NCBI GenBank assembly: GCA_017545905.1 | Contig: JAFWXL010000014.1 | Span: forward strand, 1-35,931 | Length of the DNA: 35,931 bases | Direction: 5' to 3' | Source: Clostridia bacterium | GTDB taxonomy: Bacteria > Bacillota > Clostridia > Christensenellales > Aristaeellaceae | Shown here: positions 3,106 through 33,714 of the stretch, piece after piece | Layout: each line of letters opens with the position of its first letter | How positions within the stretch are numbered: position 1 is the first letter of the stretch | The notes under the pieces: model-generated | Databases searched by the model: none | What the model saw: only the letters and a program-made list of their open reading frames with translations | Told to the model about the DNA's origin: nothing | Made by a program: the position numbers and the translations under genes

Positions 3106-3165
3106 TCCGTCTCCGAACCCCTGCTGGGGATGCAATCCCCAGCCCCCTTCTTCTCTACGCGGCGG
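3106..3165 (+). repeat. Two-hairpin intergenic element, copy R1 (first stem degraded)
   Basis: The second stem is intact: CTGGGGAT (3124-3131) with ATCCCCAG (3135-3142), loop GCA. It is followed by a tail CTTCTTCTCTACGCGG. The first stem (about 3109-3120) survives only as a weak GGAAC/TCTCC remnant. The element begins about 25 nt after the ABC-F stop and is read in the same direction as that gene. Confidence 0.75.
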
Positions 3166-3170
3166 CTTCA

Positions 3171-3459
3171 TGAAGCTAATCATGGTAAACTCCGTTTGCC
3201 TGCACCAACTCCTTAAAGCCACACATATACCGTCTCATTCCGTCTGCGTAAAAGCACAGTTGCGACTCTGTCGCACGCGTGCGCCGCAAACGTAGCTCCG
3301 CTGCTGTACCATTTCTTATACCTCCCCAGCGTTCGCGGGTGGTATGGGAATCCAGAGGGATGCAGGAGGGGCGTGCAGCTCCTCCTCATCCTTCTGGGCA
3401 TAGCGCAGCGCGTTTCCCTGCGCAGCGCGTTCCGCGCCGCAGGCAATTTCATTGATGCA
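3171..3459. other. Intergenic stretch without a recognisable gene
   Basis: No frame here has a ribosome site and a convincing product. I see a short direct repeat, GCGCAGCGCGTT, near 3406 and again near 3421, and an imperfect stem around 3363-3386 (AGGAGG with CCTCCT). It may be decayed sequence. Confidence 0.4.
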
Positions 3460-3503
3460 AAAGAACTCCTCAGATCATCATCGCGTGATCCGAGGAGTTC
3501 TTT
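3460..3503 (-). terminator. Rho-independent terminator of the small secreted protein gene
   Basis: AAAGAACTCCTC (3460-3471) and GAGGAGTTCTTT (3492-3503) form a perfect 12-bp outer stem, with an inner GATCA/TGATC stem. On the minus strand it ends in TTTTGC. It lies about 15 nt downstream of the stop at 3518. Confidence 0.85.
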
Positions 3504-3517
3504 CCTTATTCTCTTAA

Positions 3518-4024
3518 TCAGCCAACCTCAGCCGTGGAATCAACCACTTCAGCGCCGTCAGTGCTCACGCTCATGGAACTGAGCATCGCCTGCACCTGCG
3601 CGTCGATCTGCGCAGCGCCCAGCTCCTGCGGATACACCGCGCTGAACACCAGCGTCTCGCTGGCATCTACAACGACCAGCGTCACATCCAGCGCTTCCTG
3701 TCCCGCCTCAAAGTAGCTGAAGCGCAAGCCCTGCGCCGGACAGCCGCCGATTTCACTCACGCCCAGCTCGCGCACATCCGTCGCGCCGACCCATTCGCTG
3801 GCAATCAGATCGCCCAGCGTCATGTCAAAGGATGCATAGCGAACCAGCTGCACGCGCGCGCCGCCGGCAAGCTGATAGGTCTGGATGAAGTCTCCGTCGT
3901 CAAAAGCGACATTCTCCACCAGCTGCGCATCCTGTTCCAATTCCACCAGCAGCACGCTGCCCTCGGCCAGCGCCGCGCCGGCCAGCAGCATCAGCGCAAG
4001 CATCACAGCAAATACCTTTTTCAT
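3518..4024 (-). CDS. Small secreted protein of unknown function
   Basis: I do not recognise the family of this 168-residue protein. It starts with a clear signal peptide, MKKVFAVMLALMLLAGAALA, with no lipobox cysteine, so it should be exported and released or wall-associated. The mature part is acidic, with alternating hydrophobic stretches (RVQLVRYASFDMTLGDLI, DVTLVVVDASETLVFSAVY) that suggest a compact beta-rich fold, and a single cysteine in GGCPAQG. The ATG at 4024 follows AAGGAGGAG at 4032-4040. It lies only 17 nt after the dehydrogenase stop and is probably co-transcribed with it; a strong terminator closes the unit. Confidence 0.75.
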   Translation of the reverse strand: MKKVFAVMLALMLLAGAALAEGSVLLVELEQDAQLVENVAFDDGDFIQTYQLAGGARVQLVRYASFDMTLGDLIASEWVGATDVRELGVSEIGGCPAQGLRFSYFEAGQEALDVTLVVVDASETLVFSAVYPQELGAAQIDAQVQAMLSSMSVSTDGAEVVDSTAEVG

Positions 4025-4041
4025 CGGATATCTCCTCCTTT

Positions 4042-5025
4042 TTACTTCACCTCATAGGGATAGGACTCGCCGCGCTCAAACGCAGCGCACGCCTCTACAA
4101 CACAATTCGCCATATCATGCACCGTTACGTCCGTATAAAACGCTGTATGCGGCGCGACGATCACATTCGGAAAACTGTTGAGCAGTGCCAGCTCACGGTT
4201 GTTCATCGCCTCGCCCGTGTGATTGAGGTAATACAGACCATATTCATTTTCGATCACGTCCAGACCAGCCGCGCCGACATGACCGCTCTCCAGCGCGTCA
4301 ATCAGCGCCATCGTATCAATCAGGCCGCCGCGCGCAGTATTGATCAGAATCACGCCGGGCTTCATCTTCGCCAGCGTACCGGCATGGATCATATGATGGT
4401 TATCCTTCGTCGCCGGGCAGTGCAGCGAAATCACATCGCACTCCCTGTAGATTGTCTCCAGATCCACCATTTCGCACAGCTGCGCCGCCTCTTCCCCCGG
4501 ATACCGGTCATAGCCCAGCAGACGGCAGCCAAAGCCGGAAAGATGCTTGAGCACAGTCCTGCCAATCCGGCCCGTGCCGATCACGCCGACGGTCATCTTC
4601 GAGAGTTCGCGCCCGCGCTTGCCCGGCAGCGAGTAATCCTGCAGTCTGGCGCGATCGAGCACATACGGAAACTTGCGGCAGCACATGAGCATCAGCATAA
4701 TCGCATAGTTCGCCACGGATTCCGGCGAATACACCACACTCGCCACGCGCAGACCCAGCTTTCTCGCCGCTTTCATGTCGATATGCTCCGTACCGATGGA
4801 ACGCGTGAGGATATAGCGGACGCCCTGTGCGGCCAGCGCCGTGAGCAGCGCTTCGTTCATATCGGTCACGATGATGCTGATTGCATCGCAGCCCTTGGCC
4901 AGATGCGCATTTTCCACCGAGGGATAATCCGCGCAGGTCGCGTATTCAAAGCCCTCCTTCGCACAGAGCTGATCAAAGTATTCCTTTTCATCAAACGTGC
5001 GGAAGCTGTATACCAGAATCTTCAT
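4042..5025 (-). CDS. D-lactate dehydrogenase, VanH-like D-2-hydroxyacid dehydrogenase
   Basis: The enzyme should reduce pyruvate or another 2-ketoacid to the D-2-hydroxyacid with NADH in the cytoplasm. It has 327 residues, a normal length. The Rossmann motif is GTGRIG (150-155). The catalytic set is R232 in TARGG, a glutamate in DVIENE (256-261) and H293 in APHTAFYTD. The stretches TRSIGTEHID and YSPESVANYAIMLMLM are close to VanH and D-LDH. There is no VanA ligase or VanX gene nearby, so a fermentative role is more likely than glycopeptide resistance. The ATG at 5025 has GGAGGAG just upstream; the open frame runs further back to 5094 but that part crosses the promoter. Confidence 0.9.
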   Translation of the reverse strand: MKILVYSFRTFDEKEYFDQLCAKEGFEYATCADYPSVENAHLAKGCDAISIIVTDMNEALLTALAAQGVRYILTRSIGTEHIDMKAARKLGLRVASVVYSPESVANYAIMLMLMCCRKFPYVLDRARLQDYSLPGKRGRELSKMTVGVIGTGRIGRTVLKHLSGFGCRLLGYDRYPGEEAAQLCEMVDLETIYRECDVISLHCPATKDNHHMIHAGTLAKMKPGVILINTARGGLIDTMALIDALESGHVGAAGLDVIENEYGLYYLNHTGEAMNNRELALLNSFPNVIVAPHTAFYTDVTVHDMANCVVEACAAFERGESYPYEVK

Positions 5026-5064
5026 CCGATCTCCTCCATCCAAAGCGCCATAGCTTTCGACCTG

Positions 5065-5094
5065 ATTATACCATCCCGTGCATACATCCGTCAA
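5065..5094 (-). promoter_or_regulatory. Promoter of the D-lactate dehydrogenase unit
   Basis: On the minus strand TTGACG (5094-5089) and TATAAT (5070-5065) are 18 bp apart. The predicted leader is about 35 nt and contains the GGAGGAG ribosome site. The promoter is back to back with that of the asparaginase gene. Confidence 0.75.
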
Positions 5095-5114
5095 AGTTCT
5101 TCTTTTTTCCTTCT

Positions 5115-5143
5115 TTGCGCAGCGCGCAGCAGTGTGATATAAT
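5115..5143 (+). promoter_or_regulatory. Promoter of the asparaginase gene
   Basis: TTGCGC (5115-5120) and a perfect TATAAT (5138-5143) have 17-bp spacing. Transcription should start near 5150, leaving a 45-nt leader. Its -35 lies about 20 bp from that of the divergent dehydrogenase promoter, so the two could influence each other. Confidence 0.7.
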
Positions 5144-5195
5144 CGCCTTACAATCGCCCTATGATATAGAAGAAACGCCGAAAGGATTCTTTCAT

Positions 5196-6197
5196 ATGAA
5201 GAATATTCTGCTCATCGCCACCGGCGGCACCATCGCCTCCCGCCCGACAGAGGGCGGCCTTGCGCCTCAGCTTCGCGCAGAGGACATTCTCTCCTGCGTG
5301 CCCGCGCTGGCAGATCTCTGCCGCATCGACGCGCTGCAGCTGCTCAACATCGATTCCACCAACATGACCCCGGAAAACTGGCTGATCATCGCCGATTGCG
5401 TGAAGGAAAACTACTTCCGCTACGACGGCTTTGTCATCACGCACGGCACGGACACCATGGCTTACACCGCCAGCGCACTCAGCTATCTCATCCAGAACAG
5501 CGCAAAGCCCATCGTGCTCACCGGCTCGCAGAAGTCCATCTACGATCAGGAAACCGACGCGCGGCGCAATCTCTATGACGCCTTCCTCGCCGCGCAGGAC
5601 AACGCCCTTTTCGGCGTGATGCTGGTGTTTGACGGGCGCGTGATCAGCGGTACCCGCGCGCGCAAGACGCGCACAAAATCCATGAATGCGTTTTCTTCCA
5701 TCGATTATCCGGAACTGGCGCTGCTGCGCGACGGAAAGATCCTGCACTATATCCGCCAGCAGCGTCCGGCCGGGCTGCCTGCATTCTATGAAAAGCTCAA
5801 TCCGCGCGTCTTTGTCCTGCGGCTGATTCCGGGCATGAGCCCGGCAGTGCTGCATCTGCTGCTGCCGGAGTTTGATGCGCTGGTGATTGAGAGCTTCGGC
5901 GTGGGCGGTCTGCCCTGTTATGAGCAAAAGGATTTCCTCGACGCCGTGAACGCATGGAGCGCCGAGGGTAAGCCAATCGTCATCACCACGCAGGTGCCGC
6001 ACGAGGGCAGTGACATCGGCGTATATCAGGTTGGCGCGCGCGCCAAGAGCATTGCCGGCGTGCTGCAGGCGCACACCATGACCGCGGAAAGCGCCGTGAC
6101 CAAGCTGATGTGGATTCTGCCCCAGACCAAGGATCTCGAGCGCATTGAGCAGCTCTTTTACACGCCGGTCGCGCACGATCTGCTGAAGTTCGAGTAA
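5196..6197 (+). CDS. ansA: L-asparaginase, cytoplasmic type I
   Basis: The enzyme hydrolyses asparagine to aspartate and ammonia. At 333 residues it has the usual size and no signal peptide, which fits the cytoplasmic type I enzyme. The first catalytic motif is ATGGTIAS with nucleophile T12; the second is THGTDTM with T85 and D86; TGSQKSIYDQETDARRNL follows, as in the family. The ATG at 5196 is preceded by AAAGGA (5181-5186). It is a single-gene unit with its own promoter, a repeat element (R2) right after the stop and a strong bidirectional terminator beyond that. Related glutamyl-tRNA amidotransferase GatD is unlikely, because it carries an extra N-terminal domain. Confidence 0.92.
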   Translation: MKNILLIATGGTIASRPTEGGLAPQLRAEDILSCVPALADLCRIDALQLLNIDSTNMTPENWLIIADCVKENYFRYDGFVITHGTDTMAYTASALSYLIQNSAKPIVLTGSQKSIYDQETDARRNLYDAFLAAQDNALFGVMLVFDGRVISGTRARKTRTKSMNAFSSIDYPELALLRDGKILHYIRQQRPAGLPAFYEKLNPRVFVLRLIPGMSPAVLHLLLPEFDALVIESFGVGGLPCYEQKDFLDAVNAWSAEGKPIVITTQVPHEGSDIGVYQVGARAKSIAGVLQAHTMTAESAVTKLMWILPQTKDLERIEQLFYTPVAHDLLKFE

Positions 6198-6205
6198 CGA
6201 GAGTA

Positions 6206-6271
6206 CGTTGGGGCTATCGCCCCAAACCCCATCTGGGGATGCAATCCCCAGACCCCTTCTTCGCTTCGCGC
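6206..6271 (+). repeat. Two-hairpin intergenic element, copy R2
   Basis: The first stem is TTGGGGC (6208-6214) with GCCCCAA (6219-6225). The second stem is CTGGGGAT (6233-6240) with ATCCCCAG (6244-6251). The tail is CTTCTTCGCTTCGCG. It starts 9 nt after the asparaginase stop. Positions 6206-6259 are identical to the reverse complement of copy R4 (7951-8004). Confidence 0.9.
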
Positions 6272-6305
6272 ATATCATCAGGCATCGCTGATAATAAGAC
6301 GAAAC

Positions 6306-6339
6306 AAAATCCCCTTTTCTTGCAGAAAAGGGGATTTTT
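6306..6339. terminator. Bidirectional terminator between asparaginase and ABC ATPase genes
   Basis: A perfect 14-bp stem, AAAATCCCCTTTTC (6306-6319) with GAAAAGGGGATTTT (6325-6338), has a 5-nt loop and T-runs on both strands. It serves two convergent units and sits exactly between the inverted element copies R2 and R3. Confidence 0.93.
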
Positions 6340-6409
6340 CGCGAAGCGATAAAAGGGAGTCTGAGGGACAATGTCCCTCAGGCGGGGTTTGGGGCCAGCG
6401 GCCCCAACG
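6340..6409 (-). repeat. Two-hairpin intergenic element, copy R3
   Basis: Read on the minus strand, the first stem is TTGGGGCC (6407-6400) with GGCCCCAA (6396-6389). The second is CTGAGGGAC (6381-6373) with GTCCCTCAG (6369-6361). The tail is TCGCTTCGCG. Compared with R2 the second stem has changed on both arms while staying paired. It lies 13 nt after the ABC ATPase stop and is tail-to-tail with R2. Confidence 0.88.
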
Positions 6410-6422
6410 TCCCTCTCTTCGT

Positions 6423-7169
6423 TTACAGAACCTTGTTGAGGAAGTCCTTTGTGCGCGCGTTCTGCGGATGAGAGAATACCTCGTCCGGCGTGCCTTCCTC
6501 GATGATGTAGCCGCCGTCCATGAAGAGCACGCGGTCGGCCACCTCGCGGGCAAAGCCCATCTCATGCGTGACGATGATCATCGTCATGCCCTCGCGCGCA
6601 AGCTCCTTCATGACCTCAAGCACCTCGCCGACCATCTCCGGGTCCAGCGCGGAGGTCGGCTCGTCAAAGAGCATGATGTTCGGATTCATCGCAAGCGCAC
6701 GGGCAATCGCCACGCGCTGCTTCTGTCCGCCGGAGAGCTGCGCCGGGAAAGCGAGCGCCTTGTCGGCAAGGCCCACGCGCTCAAGCAGCTTCTTTGCATT
6801 CTCTTCCGCCGAAGCCTTATCGGCCTTCTTCAGATCGACAGGCGCGAGCGTCAGGTTGCGAAGCACGTTCATGTTATTGAACAGATTGAAATGCTGAAAC
6901 ACCATGCCCACGTTTTCGCGGACCTTGTTGATATCCACCTTTTTGTCGGTGATGTCGTATCCATCGACGACAACGGTGCCGCCTGTGATATTCTCCAGCC
7001 TGTTCATGCAGCGCAGGAACGTGGATTTGCCGCTGCCGGAAGGGCCGATGATCACGACGACCTCGCCCTCATAGATATCCGTGGATACATCCTTGAGCAC
7101 TTCAAGCCTGCCGAAGTTCTTCTTGAGGTGCTCCACATGAATCTTGACGTTGTCCTTGTTAATGGCCAT
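6423..7169 (-). CDS. glnQ: Polar amino-acid ABC transporter ATP-binding protein
   Basis: This 248-residue ATPase powers uptake of a polar amino acid. It has Walker [10 protein letters not shown] (42-50), a Q-loop region [15 protein letters not shown], signature [15 protein letters not shown], Walker [14 protein letters not shown] and the switch histidine in [10 protein letters not shown]. The [10 protein letters not shown] pattern is typical of the GlnQ/HisP/ArtP branch. The ATG at 7169 follows GAGGAGG and overlaps the permease 3' end by 11 bp, so translation is probably coupled. It is last in the unit; R3 and a strong terminator follow. The symbol reflects the family, as the true substrate cannot be read from the sequence. 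Confidence 0.93.
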
Positions 7170-7830
7170 GCTTGAGCCTCCTCTCCATGCTCTTGGCAAA
7201 GCGCGACAGCAGCGTGATCACAGCCAGATACATCACAGCAACGATCGCCCATGTCTGGAAGGACATGAACGTGTTCGCCACGACGTTCTTGGCCGTGTTC
7301 ACCAGCTCCGGGAATCCGATAACGGACAGGATGGACGTATCCTTGAGCGTGATGATGAACTGGTTGATGATGCTGGGAATCATCGTGCGGATCGCCTGAG
7401 GCAGCACAACGCGCTGCATGGCGCGCCAATACGGCAGACCGACGCTGCGCGCAGCCTCCATCTGCCCGCGGTCGACGGATTCAATACCCGCGCGGATGAT
7501 CTCGGCCATATACGCGCCGCAGTTGAGCGCCAGACAGATCGTGCCCGCCTGAAGCGCCGTGAGCATCACGCCGCCAAGGCCCATAATCGTATTGAGCAGA
7601 TACGGCACGCCAAAATAGATGAAATACGCCAGAACGATCATCGGCACGCCGCGGATGAGATCGACAAACACCACCGCAATGAAGTTGCACAGCTTATTCT
7701 TCACGACGCTCATCAGGCCCACAATCAGGCCGATGATACACGCAAAGAACAATCCGCACAATGCCAGCAGCAGCGTCTGCCCCATCGCGGTAAGCAGCAG
7801 ATTGCCGTAAATATCCAGGATTCTGAGCAC
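7159..7830 (-). CDS. glnP: Polar amino-acid ABC transporter permease
   Basis: This 223-residue membrane protein belongs to the HisM/GlnP family. It starts with a membrane helix ([20 protein letters not shown]) and has further hydrophobic segments. The EAA loop, [20 protein letters not shown], contacts the ATPase. I chose the GTG at 7830 because AAAGGGG (7846-7840) lies 9 nt upstream. An in-frame ATG at 7872 has no good ribosome site and would start inside the tail of the terminator at 7878-7907. The gene lies 183 bp behind the binding-protein gene, separated by a terminator and a repeat element, so it should be expressed at a lower level than that gene. Confidence 0.9.
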
Positions 7831-7877
7831 GAGGAGACGCCCCTTTCGTGGGTAAAATTGATGGCAGTCCATCTGTG

Positions 7878-7907
7878 AAAAAGAAGGGGCACTTCATGTG
7901 CCCCTTC
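7878..7907 (-). terminator. Terminator inside the transporter unit, between binding protein and permease
   Basis: GAAGGGGCAC (7883-7892) and GTGCCCCTTC (7898-7907) form a perfect 10-bp stem with a 5-nt loop; on the minus strand it is followed by TTTTT (7882-7878). It should stop most transcripts after the binding-protein gene and let a fraction read into the permease and ATPase genes, as in many binding-protein operons. I see no separate promoter for the permease gene. Confidence 0.85.
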
Positions 7908-7939
7908 AGGCTTATCATTGCCATTCCCCTCAAAACTGC

Positions 7940-8004
7940 CGCGAAGCGTTGAAGGGGTCTGGGGATTGCATCCCCAGATGGGGTTTGGGGCGATAGCCCC
8001 AACG
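7940..8004 (-). repeat. Two-hairpin intergenic element, copy R4
   Basis: Read on the minus strand, the first stem is TTGGGGC (8002-7996) with GCCCCAA (7991-7985). The second is CTGGGGAT (7977-7970) with ATCCCCAG (7966-7959). The tail contains CGCTTCGCGG. It begins 10 nt after the binding-protein stop. It lies inside an operon and is identical to R2 over 54 nt. Confidence 0.9.
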
Positions 8005-8013
8005 TTTCCCCGC

Positions 8014-8754
8014 TTAGTTCAGGTACTTCGCCAGAATCTCGTCATACTTGCCGTTGGCCTTGATGTTGGCGAGGCCGGCGTTGAACATATCAACCAGATT
8101 CTGCTTGTCAGCGTTGAAGATGGCGAAGCCGTACGGAGAGCCCTCGTTCTCAGAGCCTTCGACAACCTTGAGCGGGAGGCCGTTTTCCTTGATGGTCGCC
8201 GCCATGATCGGGGTATCCTCGAAGCAGGCCACACACTGGCCGCCCATGACAGCCTGATACATCGTGGGAGAATCCTCGAAGTAGGTGATGGTGAAGCCAT
8301 TGGCATCCTTCAGGCTCTCGGCATAGGCAGCGCCCTGCGTACCGGTCTTGACTGCAACGGGCTTGCCGGCCAGATCCGCAAAGGAAGCGATCTTGGAGTT
8401 GGCCAGCACGGTCATGCACTGGGTCGCATTGTAGTAGCCGTCGGAGAAGATCCAGCCGGACTCCTTGCGGGCGTCGGTGATAGAGGCGCCGGCGATCATG
8501 CCGTCAGCCTGACCGGCCTGGCAGGCCGCGATGGCGGCGTCCCAGCCCAGAGAGTTGAGGTCGTAGGTGAAGCCCTGATCTTCCGCGATAGCGGCGAGGA
8601 TATCCACGTCGATGCCAACAAAGTTGCCGTTCATGTCGGTATACTCAAACGGCTTGAACACGGTATCCGTCGCAATAACGAAATGATCGGCAAGCGCGCC
8701 GCAGGCGCACAGGCACATGGTCATAACGAGAACCGCCGCGATAATCTTCTTCAT
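8014..8754 (-). CDS. glnH: Polar amino-acid ABC transporter binding protein
   Basis: This 246-residue exported protein belongs to solute-binding family 3. The signal sequence MKKIIAAVLVMTMCLCACGA allows two readings: a lipoprotein cut before the second C of LCAC, or signal peptidase I cleavage after ALA. The mature part starts DHFVIATDTVFKPFEYTD and has GWDAAIAACQAGQADGMI and VKTGTQGAAYAESL, as in glutamine- and polar amino-acid-binding proteins. The ATG at 8754 follows AAAGGAGG. The gene has a consensus promoter and is followed by element R4 and a terminator, so it should be the most abundant product of the unit. Ligand identity is inferred from family only. Confidence 0.92.
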   Translation of the reverse strand: MKKIIAAVLVMTMCLCACGALADHFVIATDTVFKPFEYTDMNGNFVGIDVDILAAIAEDQGFTYDLNSLGWDAAIAACQAGQADGMIAGASITDARKESGWIFSDGYYNATQCMTVLANSKIASFADLAGKPVAVKTGTQGAAYAESLKDANGFTITYFEDSPTMYQAVMGGQCVACFEDTPIMAATIKENGLPLKVVEGSENEGSPYGFAIFNADKQNLVDMFNAGLANIKANGKYDEILAKYLN

Positions 8755-8775
8755 AGTAAAATCCTCCTTTTGACT

Positions 8776-8794
8776 GCCGGCTGTGACCGCCGGC
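8776..8794 (-). promoter_or_regulatory. Leader hairpin of the transporter mRNA
   Basis: GCCGGC (8776-8781) and GCCGGC (8789-8794) form a 6-bp stem with a 7-nt loop between the predicted start of transcription and the ribosome site. It may protect the 5' end of the message. Confidence 0.4.
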
Positions 8795-8804
8795 GAATGA
8801 GCTC

Positions 8805-8833
8805 ATTATACGGACCCCAAACACTTTTGTCAA
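8805..8833 (-). promoter_or_regulatory. Consensus sigma-A promoter of the transporter unit
   Basis: On the minus strand TTGACA (8833-8828) and TATAAT (8810-8805) match the consensus exactly with 17-bp spacing. The predicted start is near 8798. This is the strongest promoter in the window by sequence. Confidence 0.92.
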
Positions 8834-8839
8834 GTCAAA

Positions 8840-8985: not shown

Positions 8986-9012
8986 ACAAAAAGAACAGGC
9001 TTGCGCCTGTTC
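8986..9012 (-). terminator. Terminator closing the ketopantoate reductase transcript
   Basis: GAACAGGC (8993-9000) and GCCTGTTC (9005-9012) form an 8-bp stem with a 4-nt loop; on the minus strand it is followed by TTTTTGTATT. It is the last hairpin of the array at 8993-9264 and the only one with a U-run. Confidence 0.8.
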
Positions 9013-9264
9013 AGATGATCGGTAAAGTCTTATATGCACTCAGGGGATGCATGAAAGGGCCGCAGCCCCTTCATATGAAATCCGCAGCAGCGACATGTGC
9101 GGTGCGAGGAGCGGCTGCAAGCCGCTTCCCAGATCATTTTCTTGCCGTGTGCGCAGCACACAAGAAAATGATGTTTTCTTCGCTGCAAGAATGCGTCAGC
9201 AGGCTTGCAGCGACAGACCGTCAACAAAGTATTGTTGACGGTCTGAACAGGCCTGCGCCTGTTC
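8993..9264 (-). repeat. Array of hairpins downstream of the ketopantoate reductase gene
   Basis: This 272-bp non-coding stretch is made almost wholly of inverted repeats. Perfect stems are 8993-9000/9005-9012, 9110-9116/9120-9126, 9133-9143/9162-9172 with an inner 9147-9152/9156-9161, 9181-9189/9204-9212, 9214-9227/9232-9245 (14 bp) and 9245-9252/9257-9264. An imperfect one is 9051-9060/9065-9074. The two outermost hairpins are nearly the same 20-nt palindrome, GAACAGGC plus YTGC plus GCCTGTTC. It follows the stop at 9271 by 6 nt, so it would form the 3' end of that mRNA. Confidence 0.8.
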
Positions 9265-9270
9265 CCGTTG

Positions 9271-10182
9271 TCAATACGTGCTCTCTATCTCTTTTACCCG
9301 CTCATACAGCCATGCGTTCACCGGAAGATTCACACCATGCTTTGCGCCAAGGCGCACCATCGTGCCCGAAAACAGCTCTACCTCGCTCTTCCTGCGTGCC
9401 TCGCCGTCCTGGCGCATGCTTGGCTTTCCGTCGGGCGAAAAGCTGTCCAGCAGCGCCACCCACTCGGCGAATTCCTCTTCGGTTATGGAATAACCTTCCA
9501 GCGCCGCCATGTGCTGCGCCTCCCGCATCGCGCCAAGCATCACCTCGCGCGCCCTGCCCGGCTGCTGCACGCCGCCATAGTCGCATTCAAACACCATGCA
9601 CGCCTGATTCAAGCCGACATTGAGCATCAGCTTGCCCCACTGGCGGCGAACCATATCGCCCACCGGCGTGCAGGCAACGCCATGCCCATTCAGATAATCC
9701 GCAGTCATCTGCACGCGCGCGGAAATGCCGCCCGGTTCCTTCTCGCCCAGCACGATCCTTCCCGGATGCACATACGTCAGGCGGCTTCCCTCCTTGACGG
9801 CATCCATGCCCTGCGCAACGCTGTAGAGCACATTCGCCGCGCCGAAGCGCTCCGCCACAATGCCTTCGCTCGTCACGCCATTGAGCAGCGAAATGATCAG
9901 TGTATCCGGCCCGACAAAACCCGCCGCCGTATCCAGCGCACCGGAAAGGCCGCCCTCCTTGGTCACGATCAGCAGAAGATCGACCGGCGCAGCGTCCTTC
10001 GGTGCAGCGTACGGAAAATCCACGCGCTTTCCATTGACGTACACGCCATCCCGCGCATAACGTGCGCAGCGCGCCTCATCCGCAATCACGCGCAGATCCG
10101 CGCCGGAAGAAAGCAGCCTCTCGGCATAGAGCGCGCCGACCGCGCCCAGCCCGATCAGGCCGACTGTCTTGATTTCATTCAT
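9271..10182 (-). CDS. panE: 2-dehydropantoate 2-reductase (ketopantoate reductase)
   Basis: The enzyme reduces ketopantoate to pantoate with NADPH, a step of pantothenate and coenzyme A synthesis. The 303 residues begin with the Rossmann motif GLIGLGAVGALYAERL. The C-terminal domain shows KLMLNVGLNQ, with the family's catalytic lysine, and PSMRQDGEARRKSEVELFSG, matching the conserved ApbA/PanE signature. The ATG at 10182 has a GGGGGTG ribosome site (10196-10190), and the gene lies 6 nt behind endonuclease IV. Some ApbA-type proteins act on other 2-keto acids, and no other pantothenate genes are near, so the exact substrate is inferred. A long structured 3' region follows. Confidence 0.88.
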   Translation of the reverse strand: MNEIKTVGLIGLGAVGALYAERLLSSGADLRVIADEARCARYARDGVYVNGKRVDFPYAAPKDAAPVDLLLIVTKEGGLSGALDTAAGFVGPDTLIISLLNGVTSEGIVAERFGAANVLYSVAQGMDAVKEGSRLTYVHPGRIVLGEKEPGGISARVQMTADYLNGHGVACTPVGDMVRRQWGKLMLNVGLNQACMVFECDYGGVQQPGRAREVMLGAMREAQHMAALEGYSITEEEFAEWVALLDSFSPDGKPSMRQDGEARRKSEVELFSGTMVRLGAKHGVNLPVNAWLYERVKEIESTY

Positions 10183-12235: not shown

Positions 12236-12260
12236 CGTTTTGTCCTTTCGGGCATGTTTT

Positions 12261-12327
12261 TTGGGGACTGCCGTCCCCATACCCCTGCTCGGGGATGCAA
12301 TCCCCGAACCCCTTCTTCGCTTCGCGG
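12261..12327 (+). repeat. Two-hairpin intergenic element, copy R5
   Basis: The first stem is TGGGGAC (12262-12268) with GTCCCCA (12273-12279). The second is TCGGGGAT (12289-12296) with ATCCCCGA (12300-12307). The tail is CTTCTTCGCTTCGCGG. The first-stem end faces the start of the acyltransferase gene, 26 nt away, and the element is tail-to-tail with R6. Confidence 0.88.
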
Positions 12328-12363
12328 CATATGATGACAATCTGCAAAGTCTCATCCTGCTGT

Positions 12364-12427
12364 GCGAAGCAGAGAAGGTGTCTGGGGATGCAATCCCCAG
12401 ATGGGGTTTGGGGCGATAGCCCCAACG
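12364..12427 (-). repeat. Two-hairpin intergenic element, copy R6
   Basis: Read on the minus strand, the first stem is TTGGGGC (12425-12419) with GCCCCAA (12414-12408). The second is CTGGGGAT (12400-12393) with ATCCCCAG (12389-12382). It begins 9 nt after the NusG-II stop. It is nearly identical to R2 and R4, but its second loop is reversed (TGC instead of GCA when read in the same direction). Confidence 0.88.
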
Positions 12428-12435
12428 TGCTCTTC

Positions 12436-12816
12436 TTATTGAATGATGATGTCCAGATCGCTGTTGTCGTCAGGCGGCGCGTCGCCCGTAAGCTGCACCA
12501 CCAGCTTGTGCGGCAGGCAGACGATGGTCTTTGCGCCGTTTCGCATTTTGCCCTGCCGGATGCACAGCCCGTCGCGGCAGTTGGCCTCCTGCATGAATAC
12601 AGCGCCGTCCCTGACGGCAATGACATTCACGCTGCCGTCCTCCTGCGCAATCTCATAAGTATCCTCCACGGCGAGCGGCTTTCTGAGCACCTCTTTGCCA
12701 TCGAGCGTAGCCACCACGGTCGACGCTTCTGCGCCAAAGGATACCTGCGAGATCATGTACAGCGCCGCCGCACACACGAGCAGCGCTGCAATGATGATCA
12801 AATCTTTATTCTTCAT
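12436..12816 (-). CDS. NusG domain II-containing membrane-anchored protein
   Basis: This 126-residue protein has one N-terminal membrane segment (LIIIAALLVCAAALYMI) and an external domain with EANCRDGLCIRQGKM and TIVCLPHKLVVQL, the signature of the NusG_II (DUF1312) family. It is not a transcription factor; only the fold is shared with NusG. The three cysteines in NCRDGLC and VCLPH are conserved in the family. Members are often found near RNF or small-molecule transport genes, but here it follows the 919-residue TPR protein after 24 bp. The ribosome site before the ATG at 12816 is weak. Function is unknown. Confidence 0.85.
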   Translation of the reverse strand: MKNKDLIIIAALLVCAAALYMISQVSFGAEASTVVATLDGKEVLRKPLAVEDTYEIAQEDGSVNVIAVRDGAVFMQEANCRDGLCIRQGKMRNGAKTIVCLPHKLVVQLTGDAPPDDNSDLDIIIQ

Positions 12817-18683: not shown

Positions 18684-18751
18684 TGCCTGAGGGCTGAAAA
18701 CAAGTTCCCTGATTTTTCATGCCCGCAATTCTATGAAAAGAGGTGTCGCTT

Positions 18752-19471
18752 TTGCCTTTCTTCTCCGCCAATCAGAATGCAAGGGGGTCGCGCTGGGGCT
18801 GCGATAACGGATGCGGCAGCAATGACTGCGGCAGCTGCTGGAATTCCGGCGGCTACACGCCCAATCCCAACTGCCAGCAGGGGCCCGTCGGTCCGCAGGG
18901 ACCTGTCGGCCCTCAGGGGGCGCAGGGTCCGATCGGCGCGACCGGACCGACTGGAGCAACCGGACCGCAAGGACCTCAGGGCCCGCAGGGCCCGCAGGGC
19001 GCAACGGGTGCAACAGGTCCTGCCGGCCCGACCGGCGCAGCCGGACCGCAGGGACCTGCCGGCCCAGCGGGCGCTGTCGGTGCGACTGGTGCAACGGGTC
19101 CTGCCGGCCCGACCGGCGCAACCGGTCCGCAGGGGCCTGTCGGCCCAGCGGGCGCTGTCGGTGCGACCGGTGCAACGGGTCCTTCCGGTCCGCAGGGTCC
19201 TGCCGGCCCAGCGGGCGCTGTCGGTGCGACTGGTGCAACGGGTCCTGCCGGCCCAACCGGCGCAACCGGACCGCAGGGGCCTGCCGGCCCAGCGGGCGCT
19301 GTCGGTGCGACTGGTGCAACGGGTCCTGCCGGTCCGCAGGGTCCTGCCGGTGCGGACGCCGTAATCACGCCTGCCGCCCCTGTAGCAGACGCCACAGAGG
19401 AGACCGGCGTGCTTACACAGTTCAATCTGCTGCTGGCAAACCTGCGCGCAGCAGGCCTGCTCGAAAGCTGA
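18752..19471 (+). CDS. Collagen-like Gly-X-Y repeat protein
   Basis: The protein has 239 residues. After about 44 residues with a cysteine-rich cluster ([15 protein letters not shown]) come 53 uninterrupted Gly-X-Y triplets, rich in GPA, GAT and GPQ, then a 36-residue end with [18 protein letters not shown], an ending I know from clostridial collagen-like proteins. There is no signal peptide, which fits a spore-surface protein of the BclA kind made in the mother cell rather than a secreted one. I chose the TTG at 18752 because AAGAGGTG ends 6 nt before it; an in-frame GTG at 18743 lies inside that ribosome site. The threonines in GAT triplets are likely sugar acceptors for the adjacent glycosyltransferase. 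Spore location is inference. Confidence 0.9.
19061..19366 (+). repeat. Tandem DNA repeats inside the collagen-like gene
   Basis: The segment GGCCCAGCGGGCGCTGTCGG recurs at 19061, 19142, 19205 and 19286, that is at spacings of 81, 63 and 81 bp. Each full unit encodes nine triplets, and the shorter one lacks two. Near-identity at DNA level suggests recent duplication and a length that can vary between strains. Confidence 0.85.
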
Positions 19472-23937: not shown

Positions 23938-24270
23938 TTATTCCATCAATCCTGCTGCTTCCATAAAATCCTGCTGCGCAGCCATGTAGCTGTCCAGCAT
24001 CTGCGCAAGGGCGTTCATCGCATCGTCGTCCTGCGCATCCGCTGCAAGCACGTCCAGCAGCTCCTCAAACGCGTCGTCATCGTCATATTCGCCCTCGCCC
24101 ATCATGCCGTTCTCGTCGATGACGTCGATTTCGCGCATATATGTCATATCCGCCTCGATGGCGCGGCGGATGAAACCCTCCAGCTCCTGCTGCGGGTTCT
24201 TGTGCCCTGCCTTGCGCATCGCCTTGGCGATGAACGCCACGGCGGACTCCATATCATAACCCTGCATCAT
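23938..24270 (-). CDS. Small acidic protein of unknown function
   Basis: I do not recognise this 110-residue, strongly acidic protein. It has a basic N-terminal third (AVAFIAKAMRKAGHKNPQQE) with the look of a helical domain, then an acidic linker with DDDDAFEELLDVLAADAQDD, and a methionine- and glutamine-rich end. There is no signal or membrane segment. The ATG at 24270 overlaps the stop of the oligoendopeptidase gene in an ATGA arrangement, so translation is probably coupled. A GTG nine bases earlier is a possible alternative start. Confidence 0.65.
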   Translation of the reverse strand: MMQGYDMESAVAFIAKAMRKAGHKNPQQELEGFIRRAIEADMTYMREIDVIDENGMMGEGEYDDDDAFEELLDVLAADAQDDDAMNALAQMLDSYMAAQQDFMEAAGLME

Positions 24271-26081
24271 TGTGCACACGCTCCCTCCGAAAGCAGCTGA
24301 CGGTACTCCATCACCAGCTCAGCAAAGTAATCCAGCGCCTCGCACACCGGCTGCGGCGTGGACATGTCCACACCGGCGGCCTTGAGCTCCTCGATGGGCG
24401 TCATGCTGCCGCCCAGCGTCAGGAAGCGGCGGTATGCAGCAACCTTGTCCGGATCGCCGCTGAGCACGTTTCTCGCCAGCGCAACCGCCGCGCAGAAGCC
24501 CGTCGCATACTTGTAGACATAGAACGAGCTGTAGAAATGCGGAATGCGCATCCACTCGCAGGCGACCTCCTTATCCACTTTGGCAGCCTTGCCGTAGTAC
24601 AGCTTGTTGAGGTCATAGTACATTTCGCACAGGCTGTCCTTCGTCAGGCTCTCGCCCGCCTCGGCCATCAGGTGCGCCTTGTGCTCAAACTCAGCAAACA
24701 TCGTCTGCCTGAACACCGTCGTGCGGAAATGCTCGAGCAGATTGCCGATGAGCATGATCCTTGCCGCACGGTTATCCTTGTACTTCCTGAGCAGATGCTC
24801 GCTGAGCAGAATCTCATTGAGCGTCGAGGCAACCTCCGCGACAAAGATCGTGTAATCCGCCTTGGCTGCGGGCTGGGTCTTGTTGGAGTAATAGCTGTGC
24901 ATCGCATGGCCCATCTCATGGCAGAGCGTGGACAGGCCGTCATAGGTCTGCTTGTGATTGAGCAGCACATAAGGCGCTGTGCTGTAAACGCTGGTGGAAT
25001 ACGCGCCCGAACGCTTGTTCTTCGTCTCATATACGTCGATCCAGCGCTCAGAAAGGGCGCGCGACGCATCGGCGGCATAATCCGCGCCCAGCGGCTTCAC
25101 AGCTTCAAGGAAGGTTTCAAACGCCTCGTCGATATCCATCTGAATATCAAAGCCCGTATCCACGCCCAGATACATATCGTACATGTGCATGTTTGCAAGG
25201 CCGGTCTGCTCCTTCTTGATACGCAGATACTCGGCAAGCGTGTCGATGCCGCCGTGCACAGCGTCGATCAGGCTGTCATAGACGCTCTCATCCACATCAT
25301 CCTGATAGAGATAGCTCTCGCGGCAGTTTTTATACTTGCGCGCCTTGGCGCTGAAGATATCCGCCTTGACCTGACCAGCATACAGCGCGGCGATCGCATT
25401 GCCCAGCCTGCCATAGCCGTTCATCACACGGGTATAAGCCGCCTTGCGCACAGCGCGGTCGGGGCTGATCAGAAAGGAATGCAGCCTTGCATCGGTGAGC
25501 TTTGCCTTCTTTCCGTCCTCGCCGCGGGTCGTGCCCAGATCCATGTCCGCATCTGTGAGCATGTCGTAGACATTCTCGCTCACAGAGCAGACCTCGGACG
25601 CCATCGCCAGCAGCGTTTCACCCTCTGCGCAGAGGGTATGCGGCTTCAGGCGCAGTGTTTTGGACAGGGACACGTCGAAATCTGCAAAGTCCGGATCGGC
25701 GATATAGTTTTCCAGCACGCCCTCTTCCAGCGCAAGCAGCTCCGGCGTGAGGAACGCAGCCCTGGCCATCGCCTCGCTCACCAGCGTACCCGCACGGCCG
25801 AGCATCGCCTGATACCGGCCGACAGTCGTATCCTCATGCTGCTTCATCATCGCATACGTATAGATGCAGCCGAGCGCCTGCTCCAGTTCGTTTTCCAGCT
25901 TCAGCGCGGCAAGCACGGCCTGCTTGCCGTCCTTCATCGTGCCAGCCATGGCTGCGAGGCTGTCCGCCTGCTTTTTCGCGTTTTCAAAGGCGCGCTCCCA
26001 CGCCTCGTCGTTTTCAAAAATGCGGGTCAGATCCCATGTATACCTGGGATCGACCGTACCGCGGGTGAGTTCCTGTTCCAT
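24267..26081 (-). CDS. pepF: Oligoendopeptidase F (M3 family metallopeptidase)
   Basis: This cytoplasmic zinc peptidase degrades short peptides. The 604 residues are full length. The zinc site is HEMGH (H388, E389, H392) with the third ligand E416 in VAEVASTLNE, as in the M3B group. The N-terminal region LTRGTVDPRYTWDLTRIF is typical of PepF. The ATG at 26081 follows AAAGGAAAG. Element R7 lies between it and the UPF0210 gene upstream, and the small acidic protein gene is coupled downstream. Confidence 0.95.
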   Translation of the reverse strand: MEQELTRGTVDPRYTWDLTRIFENDEAWERAFENAKKQADSLAAMAGTMKDGKQAVLAALKLENELEQALGCIYTYAMMKQHEDTTVGRYQAMLGRAGTLVSEAMARAAFLTPELLALEEGVLENYIADPDFADFDVSLSKTLRLKPHTLCAEGETLLAMASEVCSVSENVYDMLTDADMDLGTTRGEDGKKAKLTDARLHSFLISPDRAVRKAAYTRVMNGYGRLGNAIAALYAGQVKADIFSAKARKYKNCRESYLYQDDVDESVYDSLIDAVHGGIDTLAEYLRIKKEQTGLANMHMYDMYLGVDTGFDIQMDIDEAFETFLEAVKPLGADYAADASRALSERWIDVYETKNKRSGAYSTSVYSTAPYVLLNHKQTYDGLSTLCHEMGHAMHSYYSNKTQPAAKADYTIFVAEVASTLNEILLSEHLLRKYKDNRAARIMLIGNLLEHFRTTVFRQTMFAEFEHKAHLMAEAGESLTKDSLCEMYYDLNKLYYGKAAKVDKEVACEWMRIPHFYSSFYVYKYATGFCAAVALARNVLSGDPDKVAAYRRFLTLGGSMTPIEELKAAGVDMSTPQPVCEALDYFAELVMEYRQLLSEGACAQ

Positions 26082-26107
26082 GTTTCTTTCCTTTCAGTGG
26101 GAAGGGC

Positions 26108-26180
26108 ACGTTTGGGGACGCCGTCCCCAACCCCCTGGCAGAGACACCGTCCCTGCACCCTTCTTCGCTTCGCGCGGCTT
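26108..26180 (+). repeat. Two-hairpin intergenic element, copy R7
   Basis: The first stem is TTGGGGAC (26112-26119) with GTCCCCAA (26123-26130). The second is GCAGAGAC (26138-26145) with GTCCCTGC (26149-26156), with one A-C mismatch. The tail is CTTCTTCGCTTCGCG. The first-stem end faces the oligoendopeptidase start, about 30 nt away. Confidence 0.82.
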
Positions 26181-26195: not shown

Positions 26196-27551
26196 TTAAT
26201 TCTTGAGGCTCTGCAGCGGCGCGGGAATGCGTCCGCCGCGCGCGATAAACTTCTCTGCGGAATACGGGCTCACGCGCATGATCGGCGCACGGCCGAACAG
26301 GCCGCCAAACTCAACCTCGTCGCCCACATCCTTGCCCGGCGCGGGAATGATGCGTACAGCCGTCGTCTTATGATTGACCATGCCGATGGCCGCCTCGTCC
26401 GCGATGATCGCAGCGATCGTGCTCGCCGGGGTATTGCCCGGCACGGCGATCATATCCAGACCAACCGAGCACACGCAGGTCATCGCCTCCAGCTTTTCAA
26501 GGCTGAGCGCGCCGCAGGCCGCCGCATTGATCATGCCGATATCTTCGGAAACCGGGATAAACGCGCCGGACAGGCCGCCGACATGGCTGGACGCCATCAC
26601 GCCGCCCTTCTTGACCGCGTCATTAAGCAGCGCCAAGGCTGCCGTGGTGCCGTGGCAGCCGCAGACCTCAAGGCCCATTTCCTCCAGAATATGCGCCACA
26701 GAGTCGCCCATCGCCGGGGTCGGCGCAAGCGACAGATCGACGATGCCAAATGGCACGCCGAGGCGGCTGGAGGCCTCGCGCGCAATCAGCTGGCCCACAC
26801 GCGTGATCTTGAACGCCGTGCGCTTGATCGTCTCGGCAACGACGTCAAACGGCTGATCCTTCGCAGAGATTTCCAGCGCGCGCTTAACCACGCCCGGGCC
26901 GGAAATGCCCACGTTGATGCAGCAGTCGCCCTCGCCCGGGCCATGGAAAGCGCCCGCCATAAAAGGATTATCCTCCACAGCATTGGCAAAGACGACCAGC
27001 TTCATGCAGCCGGAAGCGTCGGTATCCTTCGTCGCCTCAGCGATATCTTTGATCGCCTCGCCGCACAGGCGCACCGCATCCATGTCGATGCCCGCGCGGG
27101 TGGACGCCACATTCACAGAGGAGCACACGCGCTCCGTGGTGGAAAGCGCCTCCGGCAGGGATGCGATCAGCGCACGATCGGATTTGGTCATGCCCTTCTG
27201 CACCAGCGCGGTATAACCGCCGATGTAATTAACGCCGGTCTCCTTCGCCGCAGCGTCCATCGCACGCGCCACAACCACCGGATCGCCGCAGGCTGCCGCC
27301 ACAAGGCTTGCCGGCGTGACGGAAATGCGCTTATTGACGATCGGAATGCCGAATTCGCGCTCCAGATCCTCGCCGGTCTTCACCAGATGCTCCGCCTGTC
27401 TGGTAATGCGGTCGTATACATTGCTATACAGGGTTTTCTTATCCGGATGGGCGCACTCATAGAGCGAAATACCCATCGTGATCGTGCGGATGTCGAGCTT
27501 CTCCTCGTTGATCATCCGTACGGTCTGCAGAATTTCAGACGTATTGATCAT
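26196..27551 (-). CDS. UPF0210 (DUF711, PFL-like) family protein
   Basis: This 451-residue protein matches the UPF0210 family: ETVRMI-type start ([20 protein letters not shown]), [20 protein letters not shown] and [20 protein letters not shown]. Structures in this family resemble the pyruvate formate-lyase barrel, but no reaction is established as far as I know. The ATG at 27551 follows GGAGG. It is paired with the ACT-domain gene 100 bp upstream, an arrangement seen in many Bacillota and archaea, which suggests the two proteins work together, perhaps with an amino acid as effector. Confidence 0.9.
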
Positions 27552-27651
27552 ACGTTCCTCCAATGATCATTCAGAATTCCAGTACGATTCCGGCTTCGTC
27601 CGCTATGGACTTTGCTTGCAGCCCGCATCGCCGGAAGCGGCGGCCTGCCGG

Positions 27652-27927: not shown

Positions 27928-27950
27928 ATTTTCCTCCGAATCAGTCATTA

Positions 27951-28646: not shown

Positions 28647-28662
28647 GTAAATCCTCCGAGTA

Positions 28663-30633: not shown

Positions 30634-30669
30634 TTTCTTCTCTTCTTTCTCCCGGGAATTGCCGGGGTA

Positions 30670-30745
30670 CGCCGGGCTGCCGCCCGGACCTGCCCGAGGG
30701 TCGATATCCCTCGGACTCCCTTTTACGCTTTGCGGTGGCTTAAAG
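30670..30745 (+). repeat. Two-hairpin intergenic element, copy R8 (divergent)
   Basis: The first stem is CCGGGC (30672-30677) with GCCCGG (30682-30687). The second is CCGAGGG (30694-30700) with CCCTCGG (30708-30714). The tail is CTCCCTTTTACGCTTTGCGG. Almost every stem base differs from R2, but pairing and layout are kept. The first-stem end faces the fructose-bisphosphatase start. Confidence 0.72.
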
Positions 30746-30750
30746 CAAGG

Positions 30751-31137
30751 TTATTGATGGCAGCGGGCGATGCACTCGATTTCGATGGCAAGGCCCATCG
30801 GCAGCTTCGATACTTCCACACAGGAGCGCGCCGGATAGTTGGGCGCAAAATACTCCGCGTACATCTTGTTCACCTCAGCAAAATCGCCCAGATCCTTGAG
30901 GAAGACGGTCGTCTTGAGCACGTCGTCCATCGTGAGGCCCAGCTCGCCCAGAATCGTGCGGATATTTTCAAACACCTGCTTCGCCTGCGCCAGCGTGCCG
31001 CCCTCCACGGGCTTGCCCACCGCCGGATCCACGCCGATCACACCGGACATATACACGGTATCGCCATACACCACAGCACTGCAGTACGGGCCGATCGCGG
31101 CCGGACCCTTGGTGCTCTTGAAACAAATCTTATCCAT
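30751..31137 (-). CDS. ridA: RidA family enamine/imine deaminase
   Basis: The enzyme hydrolyses reactive 2-aminoacrylate-type enamines released by PLP enzymes. The 128 residues match the family: SGVIGVDP, TVFLKDLGDFAEVNKMY, and the ligand-binding arginine in PARSCVEVSKLP with the glutamate in IEIECIA. The start at 31137 is the only reasonable one. It lies between the VanW gene (29 bp) and repeat R8. An aminotransferase is encoded further upstream in the same run, which would be a fitting source of substrate. Confidence 0.93.
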   Translation of the reverse strand: MDKICFKSTKGPAAIGPYCSAVVYGDTVYMSGVIGVDPAVGKPVEGGTLAQAKQVFENIRTILGELGLTMDDVLKTTVFLKDLGDFAEVNKMYAEYFAPNYPARSCVEVSKLPMGLAIEIECIARCHQ

Positions 31138-31166
31138 AAACTGCTTCCTCTCTTTCTGTCGCTCTG

Positions 31167-32651: not shown

Positions 32652-33511
32652 CCGTTCACCTCGCCTTCGTCATTTTCTGCGATGCGTGCAAGCAGCCTCT
32701 GCATATCGCTGTGCATCGTCTGCCAGCGATCCAGTCCCTCGCCGATATCGGTCTTTCTGACCTCTTCGCCGTGGAAATCGCTGCCGCCGGTGATCAGCAG
32801 ATCCTCCCGCTGCGCCAGACGCTTCAAAAACGACGCATGATTATTCTGCGCGCTGGGATGATAAACCTCCACGCCGGCAAGCCCCTGGCTCTTCCATTCG
32901 CCGATGAGCGATTCAAGCATCGTCTCGCCCATTTTCAGCTCCATCGGGTGGGCCAGCACAGCAATGCCGCCCGCCGAGCGAATCAGGCTCACGGCTTCGC
33001 CCACCTTCACGTCCTCCTTGGGCACATAGGCGGGCTTTCCGGGCTTGAGATAGCGGTCAAATGCCTCATTGACCGAGAGCACATGTCCTGCTTCCACCAT
33101 CGCGCGCGCAATATGCGGTCTGCCCATCACACCGCGCGCAAGCTCCCGCACGCGCGCCATCTCAACGGGCTTGCCCAGCTCGCACAGCCTCTGCACCATC
33201 GCAGCCGTACGCGCCTCGCGCTGGCGCACACGCTCCCGGCAGAACGCACGCAGCGCCTCATCCTCCGGATCAAAGCCGTAGCCCAGCACATGGATTTCCT
33301 TCTGCGCGCCGCAGCTGAGCTCCACGCCATGAATCAGCGTCATGCCCAGCTCCTGCGCCATACGCTTCGCCAGCGGTATCCCGTCCACGCAGTCGTGATC
33401 GGTCAGCGCCACATGCGTAAAGCCCAGCGACGCCGCGCGGCACATCAGTTCATCCGGCGCAAGCACGCCGTCCGATGCAGTGGAATGCATATGCAGATCA
33501 GCCTTGATCAA
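32642..33511 (-). CDS. PHP domain phosphoesterase (RNase AM/TrpH-like)
   Basis: The 289 residues carry the PHP metal-site motifs: DLHMHSTASDG, LTDHDCVDG, IHGVELSC, GRPHIARAM, VLAHPMELK and GGSDFHGEE. The size and order match the YciV/TrpH group, whose E. coli member removes 5' nucleotides from RNA and 3',5'-nucleotide bisphosphates. I chose the TTG at 33511 because AAAGGAGG lies 7 nt upstream. The first hairpin of element R9 ends right against that ribosome site. The stop overlaps the VanW start. Confidence 0.88.
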   Translation of the reverse strand: MIKADLHMHSTASDGVLAPDELMCRAASLGFTHVALTDHDCVDGIPLAKRMAQELGMTLIHGVELSCGAQKEIHVLGYGFDPEDEALRAFCRERVRQREARTAAMVQRLCELGKPVEMARVRELARGVMGRPHIARAMVEAGHVLSVNEAFDRYLKPGKPAYVPKEDVKVGEAVSLIRSAGGIAVLAHPMELKMGETMLESLIGEWKSQGLAGVEVYHPSAQNNHASFLKRLAQREDLLITGGSDFHGEEVRKTDIGEGLDRWQTMHSDMQRLLARIAENDEGEVNGCR

Positions 33512-33524
33512 TCAGAAACCTCCT

Positions 33525-33590
33525 TTGTGGGCTCTGCCCACACCCGGCAGGGACATTGTCCCTGCACCCTTCTTCGCTTCGCGCTGGTTT
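33525..33590 (+). repeat. Two-hairpin intergenic element, copy R9
   Basis: The first stem is TGTGGGC (33526-33532) with GCCCACA (33536-33542). The second is GCAGGGAC (33547-33554) with GTCCCTGC (33558-33565). The tail is CTTCTTCGCTTCGCG. The first stem touches the ribosome site of the PHP gene. The element is tail-to-tail with R10. Confidence 0.87.
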
Positions 33591-33605
33591 TAAGCTTCTT
33601 ATCCG

Positions 33606-33627
33606 TGGAGCGGCAATAGCCGCTCCA
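33606..33627. repeat. Hairpin between element copies R9 and R10
   Basis: TGGAGCGGC (33606-33614) and GCCGCTCCA (33619-33627) form a perfect 9-bp stem with loop AATA. No T-run follows on either strand, so it is probably not a terminator. Confidence 0.6.
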
Positions 33628-33645
33628 AGAAAAGAATGTTTATGC

Positions 33646-33714
33646 CGCCGCGAAGCGGAAATGGGGTCTGGGGACTGGTCCCCAGTCAGGGGCATGGGGA
33701 TGAAATCCCCATCG
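33646..33714 (-). repeat. Two-hairpin intergenic element, copy R10
   Basis: Read on the minus strand, the first stem is ATGGGGAT (33712-33705) with ATCCCCAT (33701-33694). The second is CTGGGGAC (33685-33678) with GTCCCCAG (33675-33668). The tail contains CCGCTTCGCGG. It begins 9 nt after the aminotransferase stop. Confidence 0.85.

Follow-up and report, generated by a model that had tools for sequence, protein, structure and literature searches.

Ten short non-coding elements, designated R1 to R10, are interspersed among the genes of a 35,931-nucleotide stretch of DNA (the window) from a Clostridia bacterium of the Aristaeellaceae (contig JAFWXL010000014.1 of GenBank assembly GCA_017545905.1), and all ten are present at the positions given in the original prediction, which was made from the sequence alone. 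These elements probably represent a mosaic, non-coding interspersed repeat that resembles repetitive extragenic palindromes (REPs) and bacterial interspersed mosaic elements (BIMEs), has spread at least partly as a miniature inverted-repeat transposable element (MITE), and has had its hairpins exchanged between copies. Tail-to-tail dimers, placement at stop codons, a MITE form in a sister species and mosaic composites, all described below, were absent from the original prediction.

The consensus unit extends from GGGATACG to TTTAAG and possesses, in 5' to 3' order, the head GGGATACG, a first hairpin, a C-rich spacer, a second hairpin, ACCCCTTCTTCGCTTCGCG, and GGCGGCTTTAAG. The two hairpins were correctly foreseen, and the length was put too low, at about 65 nt; the unit measures about 85 nt with its tail, which forms a third mini-hairpin around GCTTCGC. 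The pattern NGC-loop-GCN, with TTC, TTT or TGC accepted as the loop, is found in 61 of 68 genome copies, and the outer pair of these 61 mini-hairpins is C-G in 51, T-A in 2, G-C in 2, T-G in 3 and unpaired in 3. Counts of context and flanks likewise rest on 68 of 83 model matches, 14 matches below 35 bits and one of 42 bits (L134:19787; L-numbers denote loci) having been left out. When the elements are read so that the tail comes last (3'), R1, R2, R5, R7, R8 and R9 lie on the plus strand and R3, R4, R6 and R10 on the minus strand, such that R2/R3, R5/R6 and R9/R10 constitute tail-to-tail dimers; further dimers of this kind occur elsewhere in the genome.

A covariance model built from the ten copies matches them, by construction, at 49.4 to 85.1 bits, and the next-best matches in the window reach at most 16.5 bits, most being antisense echoes of the same elements. 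Searching the window's own genome (G000; other G-numbers denote related genomes) and its relatives with such a model, as had been recommended at the outset, revealed a large interspersed family. The window's genome holds at least 149 copies (149 of 150 scored candidates match), and the 73 matches at E ≤0.01 in 40 stretches totalling 651,633 bases extrapolate to approximately 280 copies per genome, copy density in the window being 2.5 times higher than in this sample. Even as a plain DNA query, the R1 region yielded 31 matches in the same genome, R1 included. Among 20 relatives, copies number at least 150 in G011, 145 in G010, 76 in G003, 20 in G005, 18 in G009, 4 in G008, 3 in G007 and 1 in G001, and the model search found none in G002, G004, G006 and G012, indicating a patchy distribution in the genus. 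G019, from a different family, gave 21 weak matches. Some match at E ≤0.001 was found in 77 of 200 sampled genomes of the bacterial family, with strong matches confined to the genus except for G080 (1.0e-15), and in a class-wide sample only 2 of 291 genomes matched at E ≤1e-6, one being the window's own. Plasmid and phage collections searched with R2 gave no match. The comparison with Rfam advised by the original prediction placed no family above its gathering cut-off in the window (4227 models), and all 12 matches obtained for positions 6100-8100 at E ≤10 fell under the cut-off. Finally, a literature search, whose coverage excluded most subscription journals, recognized no paper describing this family.

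The core, i.e., the two hairpins together with the mini-hairpin tail, occurs singly, tail to tail, or fused to other hairpin modules. In the window's genome and in G022, which is the nearest of the relatives found (84% across the right part of the window), cores are joined to varying upstream and downstream modules, as in BIMEs. For example, the palindrome GGCRAACTNCGTTYGCC occurs five times in the sample of the window's genome, always within 75 nt behind a core, and in one of its copies a T in the second half is replaced by A. L101 holds a composite of about 280 nt that is missing from the matching gap of G022, where other DNA stands. Composites in which head-to-head cores enclose another palindromic module, GGAATCTCAGCGGAGCCGAAGGCGACTATTGAGATTC, were also observed (L339:8290-8920 and L101:10900-11400).

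Evidence for a MITE form comes from the relatives. In the sister species G034, the core sits inside a 195-bp unit with the ends TACTACTCTCAAATA...TATTTGAGAATAGTA; both ends are present in 17 of the 20 copies examined (18 stretches), and all 17 are flanked by identical 3-bp sequences, every one of them TNA. (The CAMFCQ records are the G034 genome again and were not counted as independent.) G036 possesses a related unit, with 59 and 60 end matches relative to none for a reversed-pattern control, and in the G022 records (SVGO01) three of 29 cores are bounded by terminal inverted repeats (TIRs), span 126-135 bp, and have TNA flanks in all three cases. TIRs with target-site duplications and no coding capacity, the hallmarks of MITEs, are thus found in relatives only, where at least part of the family would spread as a non-autonomous element with inverted ends of about 15 bp and 3-bp TNA duplications. 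The transposase would be supplied from elsewhere, and one matching the MITE would be expected to have TACTAYTCTCAAATA ends. A TNA target duplication is the rule for IS5-type insertion sequences (ISs), and the TNA duplications therefore suggest an IS5-type enzyme for the MITE form. In G034, a two-frame IS5_3-type transposase (DUF4096 + DDE_Tnp_1) with the ends GAGTGTGTTTCTAAA is present at L221:1092-1902 and in L223; in L221 it is followed immediately by a TIR-bounded core. A search for DDE_Tnp_1 returned seven matches in four of nine genomes, none of them shown to share the MITE ends.

Several observations weigh against spread as a MITE. TIR-bounded cores without matching flanks account for one of three in G036 and the single one in the CAMENN records. 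In the sample of the window's own genome, none of 46 cores has inverted ends, and a search for target duplications gave no signal, the best 3-mer agreement being 6 of 68, whereas shuffling reached up to 10. Among 80 G034 places, none showed a pair of TIRs spaced 1-3 kb apart, although several of these places are close to the end of a contig, so that a longer copy might have been missed; the IS5_3-type element beside a G034 copy has ends unlike those of the MITE, in assemblies that may lack IS copies; and two relatives carrying the family, G003 and G022, encode genes of the REP-associated tyrosine transposase (RAYT) type. One locus of the window's genome, L128:17814, resembles a decayed unit of the G034 type.

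The elements are strictly intergenic. With genes predicted by a simple codon-usage caller (587 genes over 41 sources), none of the 68 copies overlaps a gene, which extends to the genome the earlier statement that they lie only between genes. Four copies are located at stretch edges, and the other 64 occupy 51 co-directional and 13 convergent gaps; no copy is found in a divergent gap, relative to 11.8 expected from intergenic length (divergent gaps constitute 17.9 of 97.3 kb in gaps of at least 75 nt). Of the 31 copies with their head towards a stop codon, 22 begin within 12 nt of it, relative to 2.25 expected if evenly placed in the gaps. R3 and R4 stand visibly between a stop codon and a native terminator, and a terminator-like hairpin was found within 90 nt 3' of the element in 10 of 24 cases, relative to 102 of 231 gene ends that carry no element and to 53 of 480 shuffled sequences. 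Copies are accordingly retained nearly exclusively in the interval from a stop codon to the native terminator, and from this placement they should be transcribed as hairpins of the 3' untranslated region (3'-UTR). The idea that the MITE inserts precisely at stop codons was considered and not adopted, since only 4 of 17 G034 copies lie at the stop of an open reading frame of at least 80 codons.

That both arms of the stems change together, as first proposed, holds relative to shuffled and slid control alignments. Among 83 aligned copies, 93.5% of paired cells are complementary relative to 80.8% after shuffling, the covariation score is 0.357 relative to 0.159 for shuffled and at most 0.080 for slid alignments, and two-sided changes occur in 12 of 16 pairs relative to 7.8 after shuffling; since copies within a genome lack independence and the model guided the alignment, which leans towards it, these values establish complementarity and not its cause. 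In 39 copies the innermost pair of stem 1 (columns 14-35) reads U-G, and it probably belongs to the loop, and the outermost pairs are unpaired in 17 copies for stem 1 and 26 for stem 2.

Seven sites shared with G022 provide 14 stems, which were counted by hand with R7 compared to the version on G022 contig C15. Four stems are the same or one base off, nine are different throughout, and one differs by a single compensatory pair plus the loop (CTGAGGGA/TCCCTCAG vs. TTGAGGGA/TCCCTCAA); a hairpin has been gained or lost at two of the seven sites. At L101:10965, for example, the core is 57.4% identical to that of G022 between flanks of 90.6% and 88.7%. The allele of the window's genome recurs unchanged in L105 and with at most three mismatches at 18 places in the G022 loci examined, and the G022 allele has relatives with at most three mismatches in both genomes. 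Exchange between copies, probably by gene conversion, most simply explains these whole-hairpin differences; replacement through re-insertion at the same place is possible and requires close reuse of the site. As exchange is the best explanation, covariation alone is no proof of selection on an RNA. The original prediction that pairing rather than sequence is kept therefore stands for conserved pairing; that selection on the fold maintains it does not follow, as exchange between copies accounts for the whole-hairpin differences as well. It is tempting to suggest that the family evolves by in-place replacement of whole hairpins with alleles of other copies, with hairpins also being added and lost as units, in which case within-genome covariation would reflect recombination between perfect palindromes and not RNA selection; this broader proposal is advanced tentatively, with distinctly less assurance than the classification of the repeat itself. 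Cores with three hairpins instead of two were seen in L229 and at L101:6917, and they suggest that hairpins are gained or lost as units. The R7-site gap is also present in two versions in the G022 assembly (L197/L198; contigs C15 and C67), each with an element but with different hairpins, and these may be either paralogues or a mixture of strains.

The same data bear on an alternative in which the elements are functional structured RNAs, i.e., 3'-end stabilizers, processing sites or protein-binding sites, with pairing selected locus by locus and mobility ancient or secondary. The strong covariation across 83 copies, the compensatory pair at one shared site and the strict 3'-UTR placement are what such a role would produce. 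Shared occupancy offers some support as well: the R5 and R2 positions are occupied in G011, the R8 site (between RidA-like and fbp-like genes) holds an element in the window, G022 and G011, and the R7 site of G003 holds a core (L187:1-61). Three intergenic regions of the window, compared with G011, G009, G003 and G008, show gains and losses, and such insertion differences favour the mosaic-repeat reading: the R4 site carries no element in G011, G009 and G008, and R6 and R3 have no counterpart in G011 and G009. The R8 site is empty in G034, G003 and G009. Against the structured-RNA reading, many of the shared-site stems have been replaced in full by alleles present elsewhere in the genomes, the congeners G002, G004, G006 and G012 lack the family altogether, and G·T cells (14) are not clearly commoner than A·C cells (9) in a hand count of low power over 59 of 68 copies. 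We therefore consider the structured-RNA alternative unlikely.

Slightly less likely again is the possibility that these are REPs or BIMEs moved by a RAYT, a Y1 tyrosine transposase, that is now lost or unassembled in the window's genome. The absence of TIRs and target duplications from core-only copies is typical of RAYT-moved REPs. Copy-number class, inverted pairs and placement also agree with what is published for REPs (PMC3733652). G003 carries an intact 193-aa RAYT-type gene (NF047646, 87.3 bits at a cut-off of 80; L051:1312-1893), its G022 counterpart, flanked by the same two genes, is interrupted by a stop codon (L052:1294-1836; 73.7 bits for the piece after the stop), the copy-rich genomes G030 and G033 have one match each to the Y1 family PF01797, and 16 of 29 genomes of the genus have a PF01797 match. 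Nevertheless, PF01797 has no match in the copy-rich genomes G000, G010, G011, G034 and G036 (assemblies 78-96% complete), though the same search detects the G003 and G022 genes, if only weakly, and a tblastn search with the G003 gene over the loci examined matched L051 and L052 only. Within 1.5 kb either side of the match, L051 contains no core, and the sole core of L052 stands behind the next gene. The missing GTAG or CGTC tag and the TIRs and TNA duplications of G034 further argue against this route; on our preferred reading of a partly MITE-borne mosaic repeat, the RAYT of the two relatives may act on other forms. The G022 RAYT-type gene copy also contains a palindrome, GTAGGGGAGGGGCTCTGCTCCTCCC.

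Transcription terminators, perhaps bidirectional, would account for GC-rich hairpins right after stop codons and are very improbable, given that native terminators follow the elements at the normal rate and that the T-run an intrinsic terminator has behind its hairpin is mostly missing: TTTTT is absent from 64 of 68 copies and present in four, making the early claim of no U-run nearly right and that of no ordinary terminators sound.

Among known systems, the closest likeness is to REPs and BIMEs, which are also high-copy intergenic palindromes downstream of genes and form inverted dimers. REPs are described as occupying co-directional or convergent intergenic gaps, mostly no more than 20 bp from the 3' end of a gene, in one report whose text does not contain the words Firmicutes and Clostridi... 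(PMC3733652). The present family differs through its two-hairpin core plus mini-hairpin and through the TIR/TNA form of the sister species. It also differs from the GTAG and CGTC REPs, which have an unpaired tag by a single palindrome of 20-40 nt; here, there are two palindromes, and the head reads GGGATACG, with stem 1 including the bases that follow ACG. Because the defining tag is missing, the family was not placed in either superfamily. GTAG-type REPs have an associated RAYT; here, none was found in the five copy-rich genomes, and two relatives have one RAYT-type gene each. The EFAR elements of Enterococcus faecalis are MITE-like, assemble from variable modules, commonly contain two independent stem-loops, and integrate into stem-loops. 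They resemble our family by general description, and their host lineage differs; EFAR is only named in the REP report (PMC3733652). The pneumococcal BOX, RUP and SPRITE repeats are likewise small and interspersed, a likeness in general description; they are partly co-transcribed with genes and have been proposed to be parasitic (PMC3049150). Finally, E. coli REPs that lie 15 nt or less from a stop codon have been reported to stall ribosomes (PMC12306157, citing earlier work), and the distances in our family are similar, with a different sequence. The likely effect on the host would be REP-like, with the elements either protecting the 3' ends of mRNAs or delaying ribosomes that reach the stop codon. 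Among the roles first envisaged, a REP/BIME-like repeat is thus supported, and roles at the mRNA 3' end or in protein binding are conceivable. A G-quadruplex on the opposite strand was also considered, but some subtypes have CC or CCC spacers, which argues against this idea.

Within the window, R1 (3092-3166; 78.1 bits) begins 9 nt past an ABC-F-like gene; its stem 2 spans 3124-3142, and its stem 1 (3098-3116) is degenerate (TCGGGA...TCTCCGA), an exception to the complementary first stems originally described. R2 (6202-6275; 85.1 bits) lies 4 nt past an asparaginase-like gene with stems at 6208-6225 and 6233-6251, and its partner R3 (6335-6413; 70.7 bits; stems 6389-6407 and 6361-6381) lies 9 nt past an amino-acid ABC ATPase-like gene, with a native terminator-like hairpin visible in the sequence at 6306-6338 on the minus strand, 3' of R3. 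R4 (7935-8008; 84.9 bits; stems 7985-8002 and 7959-7977) is 5 nt past a gene for a solute-binding-like protein and is followed on the minus strand by a native Rho-independent terminator (7878-7907) that is kept in G011. R5 (12255-12331; 71.9 bits; stems 12262-12279 and 12289-12307) is positioned 5' of, and antisense to, an acyltransferase-like gene, and R6 (12358-12431; 72.8 bits; stems 12408-12425 and 12382-12400) is 4 nt past the gene at 12436-12816. R7 (26106-26179; 73.2 bits; stems 26112-26130 and 26138-26156) is found in antisense orientation between the genes at 26196-27563 and 24267-26081, and R8 (30665-30739; 49.4 bits; stems 30672-30687 and 30694-30714), also antisense, between the RidA-like and fbp-like genes. 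R9 (33519-33588; 61.9 bits; stems 33526-33542 and 33547-33565) lies 5' of and antisense to a PHP-like gene, and R10 (33644-33718; 71.0 bits; stems 33694-33712 and 33668-33685) lies 4 nt past an aminotransferase-like gene. Between the last two, a central hairpin, GGAGCGGCAATAGCCGCTCC (33607-33626), is kept in G022 and recurs in another genome dimer (L097). Predicted folds are uneven in quality: R2, R3, R4, R6, R9 and R10 out-fold nearly all shuffles (z -2.29 to -4.61), R7 and R8 barely beat them (z -0.75 and -1.07), R1 folds no better (z -0.46), and in R5 the two hairpins pair with each other.

The window also contains a second, distinct repeat with several hairpins, about 280 bp long (8986-9271), with the hairpin ends GAACAGGCGCAGGCCTGTTC (9245-9264) and GAACAGGCGCAAGCCTGTTC (8993-9012). 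Pieces of it recur in G011, G003 and G009, and in G011 and G009 the repeat is missing from the gap between the same genes. In addition, an open frame with collagen-like GPQGPAG/GATGPAG repeats lies on strongly repeated DNA at 18743-19471 on the plus strand.

The family is a REP/BIME-like mosaic repeat that has its own sequence and, in part at least, the character of a MITE. Its host is an uncultured lineage of gut Clostridia, which thereby gains a REP/BIME-like mosaic family of its own. Because sister species retain a MITE form and some relatives carry a RAYT gene, it can be traced stepwise how such repeats originate. The family also represents a case in which strong covariation can arise through the exchange of palindromes, and it calls for caution with covariance models that pool the copies of one genome; if in-place swapping of hairpins is true, covariation-based discovery of RNA families would be misled by elements of this kind.

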